The notes under the pieces are model-generated. The model worked only from the letters and a program-made list of their open reading frames with translations. It did not search any database and was not told where the DNA came from. Below, piece by piece: positions 29,610-63,400 of a stretch of DNA of 64,000 nt. Position 1 is the first letter of the stretch. Each line of letters opens with the position of its first letter. This stretch comes from Candidatus Chlorohelix allophototropha (lineage in GTDB: Bacteria; Chloroflexota; Chloroflexia; Chloroheliales; Chloroheliaceae), in NCBI RefSeq assembly GCF_030389965.1, contig NZ_CP128400.1, positions 1,860,001 through 1,924,000 of the forward strand. Reading direction: 5' to 3'. The position numbers and the translations under genes are program-made.

Positions 29610-30035
29610 TTACCCAAAGAAAAAGCTCCACCAACTATCCCAGCCAGTTTTGCTTTTCTGTTCCAGCGTCGTAGTAGGCGCTTTTTGCCCGGCAGGAGCC
29701 TGCCCCGGACGAATTGCTACCCCGTTGACACCTTGCTGCACAGGCAATATCACGGTCTCATCGGGTCTAGCCAGACCCAAAGCTTGCCGCGCTACCAATT
29801 CTACGTAAAGCATGTACCCCGGTCCCTGTAAAAATTCAAGTTGCTGCTTGAGTTGGGTATTACGATCTTCGTATAAAGCCAGTTCCGCTTTCTTTTGGTC
29901 ACTCTGCTCGCGCATCTCACGAATACGGAAGGATTGACCGATATAAATTGCCACGAAAGCGACAGCCGCTACGACCAGCACGATAATAATTAACCGCGAA
30001 CTCAGCTTGGCTACGAGGGCACTTAGTCGGGTCAT
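29610..30035 (-). CDS. FtsB/DivIC-like septum formation initiator
   Basis: A 141-residue protein with one N-terminal membrane helix (about residues 14-34), a coiled coil (REMREQSDQKKAELALYEDRNTQLKQQLEFLQ), then PGYMLYVELVARQALGLARPDETVILP. This ends with the ARxxLGLxxPxE motif typical of FtsB/DivIC divisome proteins. A short Pro/Gln-rich tail follows. The position beside unrelated enzymes gives no further clue. Confidence 0.85.
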   Translation of the reverse strand: MTRLSALVAKLSSRLIIIVLVVAAVAFVAIYIGQSFRIREMREQSDQKKAELALYEDRNTQLKQQLEFLQGPGYMLYVELVARQALGLARPDETVILPVQQGVNGVAIRPGQAPAGQKAPTTTLEQKSKTGWDSWWSFFFG

Positions 30036-31299: not shown

Positions 31300-32280
31300 C
31301 TAGCTATCCCCGTTTTGCTCTTTGCGAAGCCGCACGCCCATTTCAATCAACAGGTTGCCGATATCCTTGGTGTTGAGCTTTTCGAAAAAGAGTGTTTCAA
31401 CCTGTGCGCTAAGGTCACGCCGTAGGTTGTTAATACCTTCCTGCAAGTGCCGCTCAATAATGCTGACTTTCTCCAGCATCTCACGGCGGTAGCTCTGCAA
31501 GCGAGCTTCAAGAGCTTCAAAATCCTGCTTGGTGCGTTCTTCCAGCGAATTATAATTGTTTTCTAACGTTGCATGTGAATCTTGCTGGCGGGAGGCAGAG
31601 GTTCGAAACTCTTCGTAAATAGCTTCGAGGCGTGCATCAAACGTCTTGAAACGTCGTTCGGCTTCACGTTGCTGTGAACCGTAAATAATACCACGTAAGG
31701 TTTCTATCTCCTTATCACGGCTAGCTTGTGAATCCTGTTCGAGATCATCGTTTCCGTTCAGGTTTGGGTTGAAACTGGAATCAAGCATCTTAGGTTTTAC
31801 CTCCGCTACAATATTATTGTTCTTGTTTCCGCTTATCTTTTCACTGGTACTAACATTTTTGCCTTGCTCATCAGTGCTAACAGCCTCTAGCTGTTTAGGT
31901 GAGTTGGCTTGTGCAACTTCTAATTTTTGTTCAGGTTCGGTAACGGACTGCGCTTTTACTACTGCTTCTTCCTCAGAATGGGTGGATTCCAATGCGACTT
32001 GGTTCTTCGAATCTTCATCCGAATCTGCCTTAAGTAAATCTGCTTTGGAGGCGGTTATCTCGGCATCAGGTACGGCTGAGGGCTGTTCCGTTTCTACCGC
32101 CGAATTTTCAGGTACTGCTACTGCGTCATCAGCTTCCACCGCACCATCCAAATCAAGTGAATTTAACTGATCGAGACTTGCATCTTCAAGAACCTCAGCT
32201 ACTGCCTCTATTTTTTCAGATTCAGTAGTGCCTGATTTCTTTTCTGACTTAGCCACTTCCGCTTTTTCTTTCGAACTCAT
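31300..32280 (-). CDS. Acidic, coiled-coil protein of unknown function
   Basis: A 326-residue protein in two halves. Residues 1-170 are low-complexity and acidic (Glu/Ala/Val/Ser), probably disordered. Residues 175-326 form a long charged helix/coiled coil (ETLRGIIYGSQQREAERRFK, SLEERTKQDFEALEARL, ISERHLQEG-like), ending with FEKLNTKDIGNLLIEMGVRLR. No membrane segment is present. The start is set at 32280: GGAGG precedes this ATG, while an earlier in-frame ATG lacks a site. It lies downstream of and in the same direction as the giant pseudokinase gene and shares its Glu/Ala-rich style. Partnership is an inference. Confidence 0.7.
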   Translation of the reverse strand: MSSKEKAEVAKSEKKSGTTESEKIEAVAEVLEDASLDQLNSLDLDGAVEADDAVAVPENSAVETEQPSAVPDAEITASKADLLKADSDEDSKNQVALESTHSEEEAVVKAQSVTEPEQKLEVAQANSPKQLEAVSTDEQGKNVSTSEKISGNKNNNIVAEVKPKMLDSSFNPNLNGNDDLEQDSQASRDKEIETLRGIIYGSQQREAERRFKTFDARLEAIYEEFRTSASRQQDSHATLENNYNSLEERTKQDFEALEARLQSYRREMLEKVSIIERHLQEGINNLRRDLSAQVETLFFEKLNTKDIGNLLIEMGVRLRKEQNGDS

Positions 32281-32681
32281 AGTTCCTCCAACTAAAAAGG
32301 AGTGTTTCATTTTGTCGCAAGAATCGAGACAACTATACTAGAGTTTCTCTAATAATTAAAAAAGAACCTGATATATTAACAATCAACTCAGGCGCTAAAA
32401 AATTAAATCGAGCTAAGGATTAATCTTCCTAATATTTGTCCAAACCATTCGGCTCAAACCATTGCACAGTATATTTTGGTATTTGGAGCTAGAAATGCAA
32501 TTTATTTTATCATAATGTGAGGCAAAATAACTGAATCCTTCAGATATTGCCAGAATGGATTTTACCTATCAATATCATCTTTAACCTGAGCAAGCAAACA
32601 GGCTGCAACTTTATTCTCGGCAGCCTTCTCAAAAATTTTCACGCTTTTTATTCTTTAGCGCGATATAAGGAATTTTGCCAC
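32281..32681. other. AT-rich intergenic stretch
   Basis: 400 bp between the giant kinase-like gene and the coiled-coil gene, both on the minus strand. No gene, repeat or clear promoter seen. Confidence 0.5.
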
Positions 32682-35600
32682 CTAGAGTCCGATAATTCGA
32701 ATATCGGAGATGCCAACGCCACCTGTTACGATTCCAATTTTACCCACAGTAATTCCCGGCGGTAAATCGGTTTTGAACAATTTGTATTCACGACTGCCTG
32801 TATAGATATAAAGGGCATTATCCCTAAGCTGAATTATGATAGGTTTGGCGTAACGGGTTTCCTCGTTACAATAGGTATAGCTTGTTGTAACGCTGGTATT
32901 CAATATCTGTTTGCCATCGGTTTTTGTATTTATATCGTATAACAAACAGTTAAAGAAAGAAACGCTGATGTAGCTTTTGGAAGTGTCGAGTGTTCCGTTA
33001 GCGGGTTCGCCATTAACATAGAAGTACAAGCCAAGCGATTTGGTATATACGAATGATTCCGACACCAGCGATACTTCAAAATTCGGAGCCGCCCCTATAT
33101 CGAGCAGCAACGTGCCGGGGCGATTATCTACCGTCTTGAATACGCTGTCTACCACGTTCCATTTGTTATCGATCAGTTTCCACTTGGGGCTATAGCTAGG
33201 CATGAAGTTATCAGCGAATAAGACCGGCAGATTGGTTCTAAGCTCTCGCTCAAGTCGGGGTTGCGAGGTATCAAAAGTAGCCCCTTGAATATTCAAACTG
33301 CTCACCAACGAGGTAAGAGATGAATTGACAGTCGAGGTGGTATTGGGAACGAGCTTAACCGTATTAACCGGCGCTTTTGCTAGAGTAACCAGCAATATCA
33401 GCAATATACCCGCAAATAACAGGATGAAGATTTTAACAACCAGCGGTAAGGAGTGTAAACTGAATGTGGGTTGTTGTACGGTTTTTTCAGCTTCAGGCGC
33501 ACCCGGATGTTGCAGAATGAGCGGAACATCAAGTTGGGCAACCTGATTGGTTTTATCTTCTAGCTGAGAAGCTTGTATCCCTCCAACGTTGCTCTTGTAT
33601 GCCGAAGACCAACCGTTTATTGCCATTGTAGAAGTCTTAAGCTCCAACGGTTTCGTTTCAGGCGCAATTTTTGCGCTCATAAGCGGCTCAGTTTCAAGCG
33701 GAGGCTCAAAAGTGGGCGCATCTGGTTCTGTAACTAGCGTTGCCGCAATTCCCGAAGTGTTTTTCGCCAGTGCTTCATACAGATCAGCTTCATCCATTTC
33801 TATAAGCGGTTCATAGATTTTCACTTTTGTAGGCGCATCCTGTGTAGGTTCGATTTCCGGCGCTACAGCCTCTTCTGCCGCTTCCTCAATCGGATAGGCT
33901 TCCTCTGGCGTTTCTGCTTGCGCTTCGACCTCTAGCGCTTCGGTAGCTCCCTCCGCCTCTTCCGGCGCAAGCTCAGCCTCTTCCAATGCTGACTCTGCCT
34001 CTTCGGTTTCGGTTTCAAGAGCTTCGGCTTCTTCCTCAGCGATGGTTTCAGGGGCTACAGCCTCTTCCGCTGCTAACGCCCGCTCTAACTCTTCTAACTC
34101 TGCCGCCAACCTTGCGGCTTCAGCCTTTTCTGCTGCTATTTCCAGCTCAAGCTCTGCAAAAAACGCTTCTTCCTCTGATAGCTCTGTCGCCGCTTCTTCT
34201 TGCGGTTCTGCTTCTACCGCTTCGATCTCAAGAGTTTCAAGCTCTTCCGCCACTACTTCCGATTCAAGCTCAGCCTCTTCTACCAACTCAGCGACTTCGG
34301 CTTCTATCGTCTCTTCAGCTTCGGTCTCAAGAGGTTCAGCCTCTTCTGCCGCTATTTCCGATTCAGGCTCAGGCGCAAGCTCAGCCTCTTCTAGTTCTGT
34401 CGGTTCTGCTTCAAGAGCTTCAGGCTCTTCCGTTGCTACTTCCGATTCAAATTCAGATTCTTCTAGTTCTACAGTTTCAGCTTCAAGAGCTTCCGGTTCA
34501 GCCACTACTTCCGGCGCAAGCTCAGCCTCTTCTACCAACTCAACGACTTCGAGTTCAGGTGTTACAGCCTCTTCTACCAATTCAGCGACTTCGGCTTCTG
34601 ATTCAGCTTCTAATTCTTCCGCCGCTATTTCTGGCGCAAGCTCAGCCTCTTCTACCAACTCAACGACTTCGGCTTCTGATTCAGCTTCTAATTCTTCCGC
34701 CGCTACTTCCGGCTCAAACTCAGGTTCTTCCGCCGCTATTTCCGATTCAGGCTCAGGCGCAAGCTCAGCCTCTTCTAGTTCTGTCGGTTCTGCTTCTAAT
34801 TCTTCCGCTGCTATTTCTGGCTCAAGTTCAGATTCTTCTGCCGCTTCTTCTTGCGGTTCTAGTTCTATCGCTTCGGTCTCAAGAGCTTCAGCTTCAAGTT
34901 CAGGCTCTTCTGCCGCTTCTACTGGTGCAAGCTCAGCCTCTTCTAGTTCTGTCGGTTCTGCTTCTAATTCTTCCGCTGCTATTTCTGGCTCAAGTTCAGA
35001 TTCTTCTAGTTCTACAGTTTCAGCTTCAAGAGCTTCAGGTTCAGCCACTACTTCCGATTCAAGCTCAGGCGCAAGCTCACCCTCTTCTACCAACTCAGCG
35101 ACTTCGGCTTCTATCGTCTCTTCAGCTTCGGTCTCAAAAGCTTCCGCCTCTTCCGCTGCTATTTCTGGCGCAAGCTCAGGCTCTTCAGCTTCAAGAGCTT
35201 CAGGTTCAGCCACTACTTCCGATTCAAGCTCAGGCGCAAGCTCAGCCTCTTCCACCAACTCAGCGACTTCGGCTTCTGGTTCAGCTTCTAATGCTTCCGC
35301 TGCTATTTCTGGCTCAAGTTCAGATTCTTCTGCCGCTTCTTCTTGCGGTTCTGCTTCTACCGCTTCGATCTCAAGAGGTTCAGCTTCTTCTACCAATTCA
35401 GCGACTTCGGATTCTATCGCCTCTTCAGCTTCGGTCTCAAAAGCTTCCGCCTCTTCCGCTGCTACTTCCGATTCAAGCTCAGCCTCTTCCAGTTCTAACA
35501 TTTCGGCTGCGATCTCAAGAGGTTCAGCCTCTTCCGCCACTACTTCCGATTCAAGCTCAGCCTCTTCTAGTTCTGTCGGTTCTGCTTCAAGAGCTTCAGG

Positions 35601-37463
35601 CTCTTCCGCCACTACTTCCGATTCAAGCTCAGCCTCTTCTACCAACTCCACGACTTCGAGTTCAGGTGTTACAGCCTCTTCTGCCGCTATTTCCGATTCA
35701 AGCTCAGGCTCTTCTAGTTCTACGGTTTCAGCTTCAAGAGCTTCCGGTTCTTCTGCTGTTACTTCCGATTCAAGCTCAGGCGCAAGCTCAGGCTCTTCTA
35801 CCAATTCAGCGACTTCGGCTTCTATCGTCTCTTCGGCTTCGGTCTCAAGAGGTTCAGGCTCTTCCGCCGCTACTTCCGATTCAAGCTCAGGCGCAAGCTC
35901 AGGCTCTTCTACCGCTTCTTCTTGCGGTTCTAGTTCTACCGCTTCGATCTCAAGAGCTTCAGCTTCTTCTACCAACTCTGCGACTTCGGATTCTATCGCC
36001 TCTTCAGCTTCGGTCTCAAAAGCTTCCGCCTCTTCCGCTGCTATTTCTGGCGCAAGCTCAGCCTCTTCTACCAATTCAGCGACTTCGAGTTCAGGTGTTA
36101 CAGCCTCTTCCGCCGCTACTTCCGATTCAAGCTCAGCCTCTTCTAGTTCTGTCGGTTCTGCTTCAAGAGGTTCAGCTTCTTCCGCTGCTATTTCCGATTC
36201 AAGCTCAGCCTCTTCTACCAACTCTACGACTTCGAGTTCAGGTGTTACAGCCTCTTCCGCCGCTATTTCCGATTCAGGCTCAGGCGCAAGCTCAGCCTCT
36301 TCTGCCAACTCAGCGACTTCGGCTTCTGGTGCAGCTTCTTCTTCTGTCGGTTCAGCTTCTAATGCTTCCGCCGCTATTTCCGATTCAAGCTCAGCCTCTT
36401 CTACCAACTCTACGACTTCGAGTTCAGGTGCAGCTTCTTCTTCTGTCGGTTCAGCTTCTAATGCTTCCGGCGCTACTTCCGATTCAAGCTCAGGCTCTGC
36501 CAGTTCTGCCGCTTCTTCTTGCGGTTCTAGTTCTATCGCTTCGGTCTCAAGAGGTTCAGGCTCTTCTGCCACTACTTCAGGCGCAAGCTCGGCTTCTTCT
36601 ACTGCAGCGACCTCCGGTGCAGCTTCAGCCACAGCTAAAACCACTTCTTCAAGCTCAGGCTCGATGGGTTCTTCAACAATCTCAGGTGGGGTGGCAGGTC
36701 TAACCAACTGCTCAAGAAGTTGTTCAGGGCTAACATCGAAATCTAACCCCAACTCAAGCTGCTCTTGCAAGGTGGCAAGATTATAATAACGCTGCTCTCC
36801 GAACTCGTTGAGCGTAGCCGAGATTATGGTACTCAACGCCGGGGTTAGGTTACGATTGAGGGAGAGCGCCGATTGGGACTTTCCGGGACGATATTGCTGG
36901 CAAGTCGCCATCCTATAAAGGATTAAACCCAACGCATAAATATCGGCATCAAGTTTATTCTCATCTTCTGAGGCGGTTGTGCTGGTGCCATAGCTTTTAA
37001 GAAAAGCTTTTTTTGATTTGGTAAGTAAAACATTTTTGGCATTCAAATCCCCATGAAACAGCCCGTTTGAATGCAAAACTTGCAGAGCGGTGCATATATC
37101 CTTAGCAACCGCAGTAATCGTTTGATTATTGAGAGGTCTATTGCGAGAGATAGCTATTTGTTCGTAAAGGCTATCGCCCTCAATAAATTCGTAAACAAAA
37201 TAATGAGTATCATCGGTAGAGCCGTATTCCAACACCGGAATAAGCACGGTGTTACCGACAAGTTGTTTACTGATTTCATACTCACGGAGGCAGGCAACCA
37301 GATAATCGGGGTTGAAATTCGGGTGGGTAGCGGAAATAGCTCTTATAAATACTGTTTGAGTGGTGGAGTTAGCAATATAAGTAAAAACGAAAGATTCAGA
37401 GGTAATAGTGCTGATTACTCTGTATTTTCCTAATATTGGTCGCTCTAATTCATCCACAAACAT
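32682..37463 (-). CDS. Giant membrane protein: pseudokinase domain, poly-Glu repeat, membrane helix, outer beta domain
   Basis: 1593 residues. (1) Residues 1-250 are a Ser/Thr kinase fold. The catalytic loop HGDLNAKN is kept (H137, D139, N144), but the glycine loop is ISTITSES with no Gly, the beta-3 Lys is Arg (VFIRAI, R41) and DFG is SYG (157-159), so it is probably a pseudokinase. (2) About residues 257-1213 are repeats of Glu with Ala, Leu, Val, Pro and Thr, almost free of Lys/Arg and Asp. (3) A linker. (4) A membrane helix at about 1340-1364 (VVKIFILLFAGILLILLVTLA). (5) About residues 1410-1593 are a beta-rich domain (LFADNF, NKWNVVDSVF, IGIVTGGVGISDIRI) resembling concanavalin-like/DUF1080 folds, predicted outside. 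The start ATG follows GGGGAG; an in-frame TTG six codons earlier lies in that site. Confidence 0.85.
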   Translation of the reverse strand: MFVDELERPILGKYRVISTITSESFVFTYIANSTTQTVFIRAISATHPNFNPDYLVACLREYEISKQLVGNTVLIPVLEYGSTDDTHYFVYEFIEGDSLYEQIAISRNRPLNNQTITAVAKDICTALQVLHSNGLFHGDLNAKNVLLTKSKKAFLKSYGTSTTASEDENKLDADIYALGLILYRMATCQQYRPGKSQSALSLNRNLTPALSTIISATLNEFGEQRYYNLATLQEQLELGLDFDVSPEQLLEQLVRPATPPEIVEEPIEPELEEVVLAVAEAAPEVAAVEEAELAPEVVAEEPEPLETEAIELEPQEEAAELAEPELESEVAPEALEAEPTEEEAAPELEVVELVEEAELESEIAAEALEAEPTEEEAAPEAEVAELAEEAELAPEPESEIAAEEAVTPELEVVELVEEAELESEIAAEEAEPLEAEPTELEEAELESEVAAEEAVTPELEVAELVEEAELAPEIAAEEAEAFETEAEEAIESEVAELVEEAEALEIEAVELEPQEEAVEEPELAPELESEVAAEEPEPLETEAEETIEAEVAELVEEPELAPELESEVTAEEPEALEAETVELEEPELESEIAAEEAVTPELEVVELVEEAELESEVVAEEPEALEAEPTELEEAELESEVVAEEAEPLEIAAEMLELEEAELESEVAAEEAEAFETEAEEAIESEVAELVEEAEPLEIEAVEAEPQEEAAEESELEPEIAAEALEAEPEAEVAELVEEAELAPELESEVVAEPEALEAEEPELAPEIAAEEAEAFETEAEETIEAEVAELVEEGELAPELESEVVAEPEALEAETVELEESELEPEIAAEELEAEPTELEEAELAPVEAAEEPELEAEALETEAIELEPQEEAAEESELEPEIAAEELEAEPTELEEAELAPEPESEIAAEEPEFEPEVAAEELEAESEAEVVELVEEAELAPEIAAEELEAESEAEVAELVEEAVTPELEVVELVEEAELAPEVVAEPEALEAETVELEESEFESEVATEEPEALEAEPTELEEAELAPEPESEIAAEEAEPLETEAEETIEAEVAELVEEAELESEVVAEELETLEIEAVEAEPQEEAATELSEEEAFFAELELEIAAEKAEAARLAAELEELERALAAEEAVAPETIAEEEAEALETETEEAESALEEAELAPEEAEGATEALEVEAQAETPEEAYPIEEAAEEAVAPEIEPTQDAPTKVKIYEPLIEMDEADLYEALAKNTSGIAATLVTEPDAPTFEPPLETEPLMSAKIAPETKPLELKTSTMAINGWSSAYKSNVGGIQASQLEDKTNQVAQLDVPLILQHPGAPEAEKTVQQPTFSLHSLPLVVKIFILLFAGILLILLVTLAKAPVNTVKLVPNTTSTVNSSLTSLVSSLNIQGATFDTSQPRLERELRTNLPVLFADNFMPSYSPKWKLIDNKWNVVDSVFKTVDNRPGTLLLDIGAAPNFEVSLVSESFVYTKSLGLYFYVNGEPANGTLDTSKSYISVSFFNCLLYDINTKTDGKQILNTSVTTSYTYCNEETRYAKPIIIQLRDNALYIYTGSREYKLFKTDLPPGITVGKIGIVTGGVGISDIRIIGL
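33840..36690 (-). repeat. Coding tandem repeat array (Glu/Ala-rich)
   Basis: About 2.85 kb inside the giant gene. Imperfect modules of roughly 20-40 residues recur, built from phrases such as ELVEEAELAPE, LESEVAAEE and EALEAEPTELEE. Whole blocks are near-identical at DNA level in several places, pointing to recent unequal recombination. Low complexity on the opposite strand creates very long false frames. Confidence 0.9.
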
Positions 37464-38365
37464 AGCTTGGTAACTCCCCAAAAGGTCCCTAAAAATCGCG
37501 AAGAGAAAAGAAACGGGTAGGTTTAAGGCACAAAATCAGTTTTGTTTATTACAAAACGACTTGCATCAATTGTAATCACTTTCCTCTTAGCTTTACAACC
37601 CATTCTGCACATGAGCGCGACAATATATCTAGCATAATAATGAATTACACGGCATTTTACAAGAGCGTATATTAATTATACTACTACTTGAACCTAAATT
37701 CTTCCTAAAAGATTGCTTAAATTTGGATATAAGTTTCTTAAAAAGAATTGGCATTGTAAATATTTTACCTTTGAAAAGAGCATAATACATAATTGATGTC
37801 AAAGCTTTTTTAAAACTACTATTGCAAATTAAATCAATTATTTATGTTATTACACCTTTTCTCTGAACCCACCACTATCTGAAATAAGCCCATCCTGATG
37901 CGACTTTTAAGCACTAGATAAGGAGCAATAAACGACCTTAAGCTACTCTCAACATGTGTTTATATTATTAAATTTTAATGTATATTATACTTGATATAAA
38001 GTCTATAAAATTATTGGTGGTTTACCTAAAAATCAATAGGAACATGAAGATGGTTTGCTTGGAGATACATCAACAAATAAAATAGTTTGATTTCACGAAG
38101 CCAGATGCCCAATACCAGCTATTTTCAATAGAGATATTGTACCAAAAGCTAATGATTGCGGCAAGCTATAAATTTCACAACCTTGAGGTAGCTAAATATT
38201 ACGGAATGGAAGTAAAATACCTAGATTTTATGGGTTCTTTTTCATATTATAATTAAGTAGTCTCAAACCGTAAAAGTACAAACGGCACAGCTATTTTCAA
38301 TGTAAGCTTTTTACCAAAAATCTTTAGAGTCCCTTACATCACTATATAAACACAGGACGTTTTTG
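37464..38365. other. Long AT-rich divergent intergenic region
   Basis: About 900 bp between the divergent giant kinase-like gene and a PAS kinase. It is strongly AT-rich with no supported gene. The phrase CAGCTATTTTCAAT occurs twice (about 38117 and 38290); it may be a decayed duplication. It presumably holds promoters for both neighbours, but none stands out. Confidence 0.5.
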
Positions 38366-43233: not shown

Positions 43234-44682
43234 TCAGAGTGACGCAATAGGAGACGACGCTACCAACCGAAAACCAAAACTGTAGCCACCGAGGTTAGGG
43301 CTGTAGTTTTTGCGGAGCACACAGGACGCATAAGCTCCATAGTTGACGTAAGACGCGCCCCGCAGCACCTTCGGCTGACCATTGTCCAACGCTACATTTT
43401 TCAGGGCAGCATAGTCATTAAGACACCACTCCAATACATTTCCAAGCATATCGTCCGCCCCGCATGCTGCTGCCCCTTGCGGGTACATGCCCACCGCAAT
43501 CGCCCGTCGCAATCGTGCTTCCCTTGTATTGGCGTAGTCCTCTTGCCATGCGCCCCACGGATATTCACGCTGCTGGTTGCCCCCTTGCGCCGCCCACTGC
43601 CATTCCCATTCGGTTGGCAAACGCACCTGCGCGTTATTGCCGATGATTAAAGGGTTGCCTATATCTTCCGAACTGGTCAATTGCCAACCCAACATGTGTT
43701 TGTTCAGCCACCGCCCAAACGCCACCGCCTGATACCACGACATCCTGTCTCGCGGTATGCTCAAGCCTTTTTGATATTGCTCTTTCAGCGTTTGCGGTTG
43801 ATACTCTTTCGGAAAACCTTGCCACCACTCGCGGTTCTGGTAGCCGTCCCCCGCTTTCACAAAGGCTTCGAATTGCGCAAAGGTTACTTGGTATTGCGCG
43901 ATGTAGAAGGGTTGTACCTCAAAGGTCTGTTTTTCGATTGCCAGATTGCCGCCCGGCGTAACCGCCAGCCACGCGATGTCGGGGATACCGTCGGGGCGCA
44001 CGCCTACCCCGCGCCGAGGGTCGCCGATTGCGCTCAACCTATCGCCAATAGCCATGCGGCGGGTGTGTATGGTTTTTGGGTTTGCAATTTCATCGAACAA
44101 GCGTTCCGCTTCGGTTTTGGCAGGCGCGGACGCAGGTTTTGGCTCAACCGCCTTTATTACGGGAGGGGCAGATTTTGGCTCAACCACCCTTGATACGGGT
44201 GGCGCAGGGTTAGGGGCAGCAACGGGCGGAGTGGAAGGCGTTTCGGGTAGGGCGATGCGGAAATTCTTGGCATGGAAGCGCAACCCTTCCAATAGCATTT
44301 CGCGTCCACGCTCATCATAGAACCGCGCCGCTTGCCACCGACTCAACCTTCGCGGAATTTCGCACTCTGCCAGTTTCAAGGGGATGATATTGCTCAGCCC
44401 TTCTGGCATATATTTGGCATAGTATAGCGCGGTTTCTATCTCTGCCTGTACATAGCCAATTTTTGACACCGACTCAGGTGTAAGACACACCAATATGATA
44501 TGGCTTTCTTCCAATGCCTTTTCAATGGCGTACTGCCACGGCTGTCCGGGCAGCAGTTCTTCCTCATCCAGCCACGGGTCAATCCAGCTTTCGGCTTTGA
44601 GGTGGCGATACAGTTCGCGAATCACGGGCTTATCCCCGGAGGAGTGGCACAGAAACACTTTCAGTTTGGCAGGGTCGGGCAT
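43234..44682 (-). CDS. TIR domain-FGE-sulfatase (SUMF1-like) fusion; candidate DGR variable protein
   Basis: 482 residues. The TIR domain occupies residues 1-140 (KVFLCHSSGDKPVIRELYRHL, PWLDEEELLPGQ, a possible catalytic Glu in YVQAEIETAL). A Pro/Ala-rich linker (140-190) precedes an FGE-sulfatase/C-lectin-like domain (230-482) with FYIAQYQVTFAQFEAF, RLPTEWEWQWAAQGG, GNVLEWCLN and VLRGASY...GFRLV. The last segment matches the C-terminal variable region of diversity-generating retroelement targets, and its codons there mostly end in C or T. TIR domains can act as NADases in defence or signalling. No reverse transcriptase or template repeat was found in the window. REP repeats abut its 3' end. 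Confidence 0.87.
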   Translation of the reverse strand: MPDPAKLKVFLCHSSGDKPVIRELYRHLKAESWIDPWLDEEELLPGQPWQYAIEKALEESHIILVCLTPESVSKIGYVQAEIETALYYAKYMPEGLSNIIPLKLAECEIPRRLSRWQAARFYDERGREMLLEGLRFHAKNFRIALPETPSTPPVAAPNPAPPVSRVVEPKSAPPVIKAVEPKPASAPAKTEAERLFDEIANPKTIHTRRMAIGDRLSAIGDPRRGVGVRPDGIPDIAWLAVTPGGNLAIEKQTFEVQPFYIAQYQVTFAQFEAFVKAGDGYQNREWWQGFPKEYQPQTLKEQYQKGLSIPRDRMSWYQAVAFGRWLNKHMLGWQLTSSEDIGNPLIIGNNAQVRLPTEWEWQWAAQGGNQQREYPWGAWQEDYANTREARLRRAIAVGMYPQGAAACGADDMLGNVLEWCLNDYAALKNVALDNGQPKVLRGASYVNYGAYASCVLRKNYSPNLGGYSFGFRLVASSPIASL

Positions 44683-60449: not shown

Positions 60450-63400
60450 ATGCAACACTTTGAACAAACTACAATATCATCAGCAAATAATAAGAAATAC
60501 GAAGACCATAACGCCACTGAGAATATTTCTTCACTAATTTTGCAAGAAGTTTTAGAAAGCACCACCAACCCCTGCTTCTCTTTAGATAGAAATTACTGCT
60601 ATACCAGTTTCAATAAAAGTCACGCCCAACTTATGCAAAGGTTGTATGAGGTTGAAATCCAGTTGGGACAAAACCAGTTGGATTGTATAACCAGCGAAGC
60701 AGATCGCGAGGTTGCCAAATATAATCTCGACCGCGCTTTTAGCGGTACGGCAGGAAAGGTGGAGACTTCTTTCGGCATAGATGAAAATCATCGCCATTAT
60801 TTAAAGGTTATCCATAATCCCATCAGAGATTCTAGCGGGGCAATCATCGGCGTAGTGGTATTAGCGCTGGATTTGAACGACCAAAAACAGATTGAGAATA
60901 ACCATAGGGAAGGTGAAGAACGCCTGCACATGGCGTTGGAGGCGGCAAAACAAGGGCTTTATAATCTGGATTTAGTAACAGGTCAAGGCGTTATCAATCG
61001 CGAATATCTCAGCATGCTTGGCTACGAACCTTCCTCGCTGATTGAAAGCCTAGACTCGTGGGTTAAGCTTTTGCATCCCGATGACCTACAGCATAGCCTA
61101 AAGGTGCTGAACGACTGTATTGTCGGTAAACTCACCGAGTACAGGATGGAATACCGCATGCGCACCAAAGAGGGCAACTGGAAGTGGATTCTTTCGCTCG
61201 GCAAAGTGCTAGAGCGAGATGCGGATGGAAAAGCCACGCGCCTGATCGGTACGCACACCGATATTACGCCGCAAAAAGCGGCTGAAACGCGTATCCTCAA
61301 ATTGAGCAATATGTATGCTGCCCTCAGCCAGACCAATCAGGCGATAATTCGGATTCAAGAGCGTGAAACATTGTTCAAGGAAGTTTGCCGCATTGCCGTA
61401 GAATTTGGCGGCTTGAGAATGGCGTGGATCGGGATGCCTGAACCCGATGGGGAATATATAGTTCCGGTGGCAAAGTTTGGCGAAAGTCTGGCTTACCTTG
61501 ACTCTATTAGGATTGCGGTTAACTCGAACGTACCGGAAGGGCGTGGGCCAGCCGGGGTTGTTTTTCATTCAAACCGCCATTACATTTGTAATGATTTTTT
61601 TAACGACCCTATAACCTTACCGTGGCGCACAAGCGCAGCGACATTTGGGTTCCGGTCTGTAGCTGCCTTCCCGCTGGTATTATCCGACAAGGTAATTGGA
61701 ATATTAACCCTTTATTCCGGCGAAGTGGGGCACTTCGATGATGAAATAGTCCAATTGCTGGATGAGATGGTATTGGACATTTGCTTTGCCTTGACTCATT
61801 TTAAAAATGATGAAGCACGCGCTCGTACCGAAGAAGCTTTGTACAAGAGCGAAAAGCTTTTCCGATTCCTGACTGAAAACGCCGCCGACATGATTTTCCG
61901 CGATAAGCTTGACGGTTCAATTGAATATATCTCCCCGGTTTGCCGCACCTTATTGGGTTACGAACCGGAAGAAATGTTAGGGCGACTATCAACTGACTTT
62001 TTCCATCCTGAAGATAAAGAAGCCATATATAAAAACCTCCGCACCAAAACTTACAGTACCGCGGTAATCCCTCTTAGTCACCGGATGCGGCGTAAAAACG
62101 GCGAATATATCTGGGTAGAAACCAATATTCAGCAGATAGTTGACCCTATTTCCGGCAAACCCTCGTATTTTGTTGGGGCATCCCGCGATATTACCGAGCG
62201 AGTAAAAGCGGAACAGGCATTGCGCGAGAGCGAGGAACGCTTCCGCCTTGTCGCCGCAAGTTCCAGCGATATGATTTGGACGATGGATATGGAGGGCAAT
62301 TTCACCTATGTCAGCCCTGCCATAGTGCAACTTAGCGATTATACGCCTGAAGAAGTTTTAAAACTAAATGTAAAAGACACCATGACCCCCCAATCTGCCG
62401 CAATTATCCAACAGGGTATGATAGAAACTATCAAGTCTGTAAAAAATGGGACTTACAAGAGGCAGGGGAAATTATTCATATTGGAGCAATACCGCAAGGA
62501 TGGCAGTATGGTATGGACGGAGGTTTCTGCCAACCTACTGCTTGATGCGACCGGGAATATCAGAGGCTTTCTGGGTATCACCCGCGACATAACCGAGCGG
62601 TTAAAAACCGATGCTGCCTTGCGAGAGAGCGAGGAACGCTTCCGCCTTGTCGCCGAAAATTCCAACGATGTGATTTGGACGATGGATATGGAGGGCAAAT
62701 TTACCTATGTCAGCCCTTCCGTATTTCAACTCAGAGGCTATACCCCCGAAGAGGTTATGCAACAAACGGCAGACGAATCGTTGACTCCCGAATCTGCCGC
62801 AATTATGCGCCAGCGGTTGACTGAAGTAATTAAAGCTATTCAGACAGGTACTTACAAGAGGCGCAAGAACTTGTATCAGTTGGAGCAGCCCTGCAAAGAT
62901 GGCAGCACCGTCTGGACAGAGGTTTCTGCCTGCGTGATGGTTGATGATACAGGGAATATCAAGGGCTTTCTGGGTGTTTCGCGAGACATTACCGAGCGGT
63001 TAAAAGCTGAAAAAGCCTTGCGCGAGAGCGAGGAAAAATATCGGCAAATTTTCGAACTGGACAATGAAGCTATATTCCTAGTTGAGCAAGCTACCGGCTT
63101 AATTCTGGATGCCAATGATTCTGCCACCAAAATTTATGGTTATACCAAAGAAGAATTTAAGGCTTTACGCAATACTGATATTTCGGCGGAACCGGAAAAA
63201 ACACAGGAACTGACTTCTAACAGAACTTTTGACAGTATGCTAGTGCCGCTGCGCTATCACCGCCGCAAGGATGGCTCAATTTTCCCCATCGAAATGGCGC
63301 TGCGCATCTTTGATTTAAAAGGTAAGTCGGTATTCGTGGTGGCTGCTCGCGACATCAGCGAGCGGTTAAAAGCCGAAGAGGCATTGCGTAACTCGGAAGA

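Follow-up and report, generated by a model that had tools for sequence, protein, structure and literature searches.

A predicted membrane-tethered pseudokinase with a roughly 950-residue polyglutamate spacer in Candidatus Chlorohelix allophototropha

What kind of protein carries a kinase-like head that lacks most catalytic motifs on a glutamate-rich chain of about 950 residues, and could it still have a function? This question is raised by an open reading frame of Candidatus Chlorohelix allophototropha, a bacterium using light for energy, in a stretch of 64,000 bp which we call the window (NZ_CP128400.1, 1,860,001–1,924,000). The closed genome of Chlorohelix L227-S17 comprises two chromosomes of 2.96 and 2.45 Mb, a 375 kb chromid and plasmids of 241 and 55 kb (PMC10972752). 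The open reading frame (37463–32682, minus strand, 1593 aa) starts with the ATG at 37463, ends with the stop codon at 32682–32684 and contains the following features.

37474..37479, minus strand: Shine-Dalgarno-like GGGGAG, 10 nt upstream of the ATG at 37463 (sequence read)
32682..37463, minus strand: complete open reading frame, 1593 aa
36702..37463, minus strand: pseudokinase domain, aa 1–254 (PF00069, E=1.3e-14; AlphaFold2 pLDDT 87, pTM 0.86; Foldseek matches to PknB/Stk1)
37380..37406, minus strand: former glycine loop ITSESFVFT with zero glycines, aa 20–28 (alignments)
37341..37352, minus strand: VAIK changed to VFIR, aa 38–41, with Phe39 at the C-spine alanine position and Arg41 at the beta-3 lysine position (alignments)
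37032..37055, minus strand: catalytic loop HGDLNAKN, aa 137–144, Asp139 and Asn144 retained (alignment)
36987..36995, minus strand: DFG changed to SYG, aa 157–159 (alignments)
36951..36986, minus strand: remnant of the activation segment, aa 160–171, about 12 residues vs about 38 in sister kinases, GTxxYMSPEQ missing (alignments; AlphaFold2 confidence drops in this loop)
33843..36701, minus strand: Glu/Ala/Leu/Val/Pro array, aa 255–1207, diverged repeats spaced by multiples of 3 nt
33444..33842, minus strand: juxtamembrane segment of ordinary composition, aa 1208–1340 (sequence read)
33381..33443, minus strand: single membrane helix, aa 1341–1361 (hydropathy maximum)
32685..33374, minus strand: outer domain, aa 1364–1593

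The protein thus consists of a head, an array, a membrane helix and an outer domain. Hydropathy gave one strong maximum at aa 1341–1361 and no strong hydrophobic segment in the N-terminal part, bearing out the single membrane pass claimed in the first-pass annotation. By analogy with the arrangement of PknB, the head and the array should be cytoplasmic, and residues 1364–1593 should lie outside.

A Pfam scan of the whole protein matched only kinase-like families, with PF00069 at residues 26–168 (E=1.3e-14). The structure prediction suggested earlier for the N-terminal domain was performed with AlphaFold2 on residues 1–254 using a 31-row alignment, and yielded a complete, two-lobed PknB-like domain (pLDDT 87, pTM 0.86), for which the nearest structures in Foldseek were those of Stk1 and PknB (TM 0.74–0.80). 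Profile match and predicted two-lobed fold place the head in the Hanks-type (PF00069) kinase superfamily.

The catalytic motifs were compared in an alignment of 39 kinase domains including the window protein, most of them from the same genome, and in a second, closer alignment with four canonical relatives. Both agree with the first-pass annotation that the glycine loop is lost (consensus IGxGGFGxV replaced by ITSESFVFT), that Arg replaces the beta-3 Lys and SYG the DFG motif, and that HGDLNAKN is kept at the position of HRDLKPxN. Two losses go beyond that description: the VAIK alanine is replaced by Phe39, and the activation segment with its APE motif, present in all 38 other aligned kinases, is deleted, leaving about 12 residues between SYG and the alpha-F motif DADIYALG vs about 38, GTxxYMSPEQ included, in sister kinases. 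From the motif set of active kinases (GxGxxG, VAIK Lys, HRD Asp, DFG Asp and APE segment), the head keeps the HRD Asp only (Asp139); the alpha-C Glu (Glu61) and Asn144 are still present as well. Because the motifs and the activation segment are lost while the predicted fold is complete, the head reads as a pseudokinase, i.e. a kinase fold lacking at least one catalytic motif, which has retained the fold and, judged from sequence and model, lost nucleotide handling and its substrate platform. The first-pass annotation named homologues with an intact Lys and DFG, and an error behind the sequence seen here, as what would refute it. Intact relatives do exist, as separate paralogues, but a sequencing error is implausible, since the entire activation segment is deleted.

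The VAIK alanine normally lines the adenine pocket of kinases, and Phe39 stands at this position. Together with the loss of the Gly loop, the Lys, the DFG Asp and the activation segment, this makes it very improbable that the head is an atypical active enzyme. Such an enzyme would use the kept Asp139 and Asn144 for another transferase chemistry, as was suggested for the DLHK proteins, pseudokinases in which the Asp is kept as well (PMC12599244); the conserved HGDLNAKN is the element in its favor.

As to origin, the nearest kinases include L055 from a sister genus (G086:C99, 837 aa, 31% identity) and L070 from the same genome (30%), with a collinear C-lobe. On the best tree, the pseudokinase groups with L055, L070 and a further kinase of the same genome, L074, at a support of 37/20 and with an end branch of 3.47. 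All three resemble the window protein in the short alpha-F/alpha-G region and the collinear C-lobe, and L055 and L074 also have the same order of parts, namely kinase, membrane helix and outer domain. Unlike the window protein, they have intact GxGxxG, VAIK, HRD, DFG and APE-type segments, and their linkers span tens of non-acidic residues compared to the acidic spacer of about 950. Since the nearest relatives include canonical kinases of the same family with a membrane helix and a similar outer domain, the window pseudokinase is likely a decayed paralogue of the family's PknB-like receptor-kinase stock.

Within the outer domain, a stretch with VLFADNF at its start (about aa 1414–1441) is similar to the ectodomains of canonical sister kinases, and the outer domains of L055 and L074 and that of the window protein have a common start pattern, LFxDxF...W...W. 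A comparison with sister-kinase ectodomains by hhalign gave E=3.4e-4 over 28 columns, at a probability of only 38%. Within this domain, Cys1506 and Cys1532 could form a disulfide. Structure prediction had been proposed for this region too; the single-sequence AlphaFold2 model reached a pLDDT of 34, too poor for use, and gave no confident fold. Of the outside beta-rich domain described before, the outer domain itself stands, and its beta-rich nature is weakly supported by the profile match. A match to the outer domain in the sister genome G083 (L010/L043) proved to be a chance hit in a surface-protein ORF.

We found no orthologue in 158 genomes of the class using the outer domain as query, and no homologue with degenerate motifs using the kinase domain in 41 relatives, 400 genomes of the phylum and GTDB contigs. 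In each of the 31 kinases checked from the pattern search of GTDB contigs, VAIK, HRD, DFG or DLG and an APE-type motif are intact; the search pattern consisted largely of canonical motifs and would tend to miss degenerate copies. In the sister genomes G083–G085, three genes from the vicinity (28282, 28974 and that for DivIC at 29610) are present in conserved order, but the pseudokinase is absent. A co-occurrence of degenerate motifs and acidic array in homologues, proposed as a check by the first-pass annotation, was likewise found in none of the relatives searched. With no orthologue found, the gene may conceivably be a young paralogue in decay.

Selection on the array can be read from its own repeats. 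A composition count confirmed the roughly 950 residues of Glu, Ala, Leu, Val and Pro reported before: aa 255–1207 contain 396 E, 199 A, 99 L, 74 V, 73 P, 1 K, 3 R and 0 D, giving a net charge of about −393, with prolines spaced by about 10 residues and most Glu standing alone or in pairs. The array is built of tandem and dispersed, diverged repeats, and all high-identity offsets are multiples of three. The repeat offsets speak against an artefact, and a misread frame was rejected as the array is coding sequence that shares its frame with the domains on both flanks. When each codon was compared with the best-matching array copy, we counted 27 synonymous and 40 replacement differences. Only 1 of the 40 replacements involved a residue outside E, A, L, V, P, I, T, S and F; changes involving K, R, G, D, Q, N, H, W, Y, C or M were expected at about 45% from one-step codon changes (1/40 seen, P ~1e-9). 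Since changes toward K, G, D or Q are nearly absent among the copies, the composition of this polyanion, acidic and free of Lys and Gly, looks kept by selection; a counter-point is that the copies are mutually related and may be homogenized by recombination. Across all copy pairs, which are non-independent, 142 differences between GAA and GAG and none to GAC or GAT were found at Glu codons, and 4-fold sites showed 72 transitions vs 69 transversions involving a purine. In a stricter per-codon test, Glu against Asp alone was borderline (P=0.05), and Glu is probably favored over Asp by selection, in line with helix propensity.

These data also bear on the possibility of a decaying or neutral gene, that is, a duplicated receptor kinase without function whose array expanded through repeat slippage and serves no purpose. 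The missing orthologue in 158 class and 400 phylum genomes, the very long branch and the tandem and dispersed repeats would fit such a history. However, we consider it rather unlikely: 4.8 kb have stayed open without a stop, although GAA and GAG are one step away from stop codons, point changes toward K, G, D and stop are filtered out of the array, a complete kinase fold is predicted, and the gene has an intact ribosome-binding site.

An improbable explanation is that the array is the working part and the pseudokinase merely its cap, with the polyanion binding cations (e.g. Fe2+ or Ca2+) or basic proteins, or mimicking nucleic acid at the membrane. The roughly −393 net charges, the apparently selected composition and the growth of the organism with ferrous iron (PMC10972752) suit this idea. 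Yet the exclusion of Asp would be unexpected for a plain charge or metal sponge; the content of Glu, Ala and Leu suggests helix propensity, and the annotated neighbours include no adjacent gene related to metals or nucleic acids.

A similar array was not found in the Chlorohelix genome itself or in 30 relatives, a search weakened by low complexity. Among 145 motif-bearing reading frames compared, the next most Glu-rich was a Streptomyces kinase (L128) with roughly 100 Glu/Pro-rich juxtamembrane residues, and literature searches retrieved no pseudokinase with a Glu-rich juxtamembrane region. The “glutamate brush” of the first-pass annotation holds as a cytoplasmic polyanionic spacer but not as a brush, since there is one chain only. 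A further acidic segment on a kinase was seen in L086 (G109:C344), whose extremely Asp-rich tail, with about 40 acidic residues per 100, lies outside and thus on the opposite side of the membrane from the window protein's array.

Bacterial pseudokinases that combine a membrane tether with a shortened activation loop are already known; what is unusual in this variant is the polyglutamate spacer. EssB/YukC as well as MviN and the ActPs3 family have been described with a degraded Gly loop, loss of the VAIK and DFG motifs and a shortened activation loop (PMC9600267, PMC12599244). EssB/YukC also shares with the window protein the N-terminal cytosolic pseudokinase, the single membrane helix and the outer domain, and its activation loop is much shortened too (PMC9600267, PMC12599244). 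Having lost the same motifs, YukC does not bind ATP, and its pseudokinase domain contacts the FHA region or partner of its machine (PMC9600267). In contrast to the window protein with its spacer of about 950 residues, YukC is without a long acidic spacer, and its kinase-like domain nearly abuts the membrane helix (residues 206 to 220). No T7SSb genes occur among the annotated neighbours, where the scan covered part of the window's ORFs. Because the Pfam scan of the whole window protein returned no match to the EssB/YukC family, the likeness is one of working and not of membership; on the best reading, the window protein would work like EssB/YukC or MviN and have a separate origin. Phe39 is comparable to the Phe of YukC and the Trp of MviN, a multi-pass membrane protein, which occupy the same region.

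The C-spine of MviN is filled by a bulky residue, and MviN and ActPs3 further resemble the window protein in degraded catalytic motifs, an activation-loop deletion and, often, a C-terminal membrane helix (PMC12599244). Measured against the ActPs3 criteria, degradation of all three catalytic motifs together with an activation-loop deletion, the window protein has the activation-loop deletion and has lost Lys and DFG but keeps the HRD Asp, and its nearest relatives are canonical Chloroflexota kinases; ActPs3 has been described mainly from actinobacteria (PMC12599244). ActPs2 likewise shows the beta-3 Lys to Arg change, C-terminal membrane regions and, in most members, a long disordered insert. 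However, in ActPs2 this 250-aa insert is located inside the activation loop and the HRD Asp is changed to Asn (PMC12599244), whereas the window protein has lost the loop and carries its insert behind the kinase domain. The combination that the first-pass annotation did not recognize is therefore partly familiar, from EssB/YukC, MviN and ActPs3 (PMC9600267, PMC12599244) and from the short Glu/Pro-rich segment of L128; an array so long and so pure is what has no precedent in anything searched.

Altogether, we somewhat favor a receptor-type pseudokinase that serves as a non-catalytic docking scaffold on a long acidic spacer and probably decayed from a PknB-like Hanks-type receptor kinase. Pseudokinase, spacer, membrane pass and outer domain of the scaffold proposed before are supported, and the scaffold role is the best reading of them. 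In this scaffold, the outer domain would bind a ligand in the envelope or outside the cell, the one membrane helix would anchor the receptor, and the polyanionic spacer of about 950 residues may let the kinase-like head extend deep into the cytoplasm, roughly 140–340 nm at most (about 0.15 nm per residue if helical and 0.35 nm if extended). Its charge might separate it from adjacent copies and from the acidic membrane. As in EssB/YukC and MviN, the head would dock a partner, for which the most likely candidates are an active sister kinase of the genome, contacted via the N-lobe, and an FHA-domain protein. Against this receptor scaffold count the missing orthologue, the unsupported placement in the tree, the absence of an adjacent FHA or Hanks-type kinase gene and the lack of a confident outer-domain fold. 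A conceivable but doubtful variant is a lineage-specific receptor in which the selected, Glu-only and helix-prone polyanion of about 950 residues acts as an electrostatic spacer or spring, signaling by reach and charge instead of phosphorylation.

The genomic neighbourhood names no partner among the annotated flanking genes, which encode a histidine kinase, a response regulator, DivIC, an MFS protein, a TIR-FGE protein and a glycosyl hydrolase, and neither an FHA gene nor another Hanks-type kinase gene was found beside the pseudokinase. Elsewhere in the genome there are 32 FHA matches, including one next to the sister kinase L074. A gene 371 bp downstream of the pseudokinase and on the same strand (31300–32310, minus strand) encodes an orphan protein with about 200 acidic, disorder-like residues followed by a coiled-coil C-terminus, for which only one weak match was obtained in 61 class genomes. 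Beyond it follow genes for a receiver-domain protein and DivIC, and upstream of the pseudokinase a divergent PAS/GAF histidine kinase is located. Further along the window, 43234–44682 (minus strand) encodes a TIR domain fused to an FGE-sulfatase-like domain, and 62182–63035 contains a 399-bp tandem duplication whose unit looks, by eye, like part of a sensor-kinase PAS domain.

Only a small number of bacterial pseudokinases are understood, and most of the described families belong to actinobacteria, proteobacteria, cyanobacteria and firmicutes (PMC12599244). The window protein adds a membrane-tethered, probably separately derived pseudokinase in Chloroflexota, for which the intact sister kinases of the same genome provide a built-in comparison. 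Its array offers a natural test of a very long polyelectrolyte of a single sign placed between a membrane and a folded domain.

The same genome has about 38 other kinase-domain matches, and kinase decay seems to be recurrent in it, judged from the motifs. In the 39-domain alignment, three further proteins are likely pseudokinases: L082 (G000:C1:33003–33806) with VAIR and HGN, L078 (G000:C2:933441–934109) with HRN and DFK, and L081 (G000:C3:336532–337134) with GFG for DFG. Long spacers behind the kinase domain recur in Chlorohelix as well. At L064 (G000:C3:362000–375274), a 1399-aa protein combines an intact kinase with about 600 residues of coiled coil, a TIR-like part (by eye), a membrane helix and an outer domain, and a second kinase at this locus has a long coiled coil and, by eye, an FGE-sulfatase-like end.
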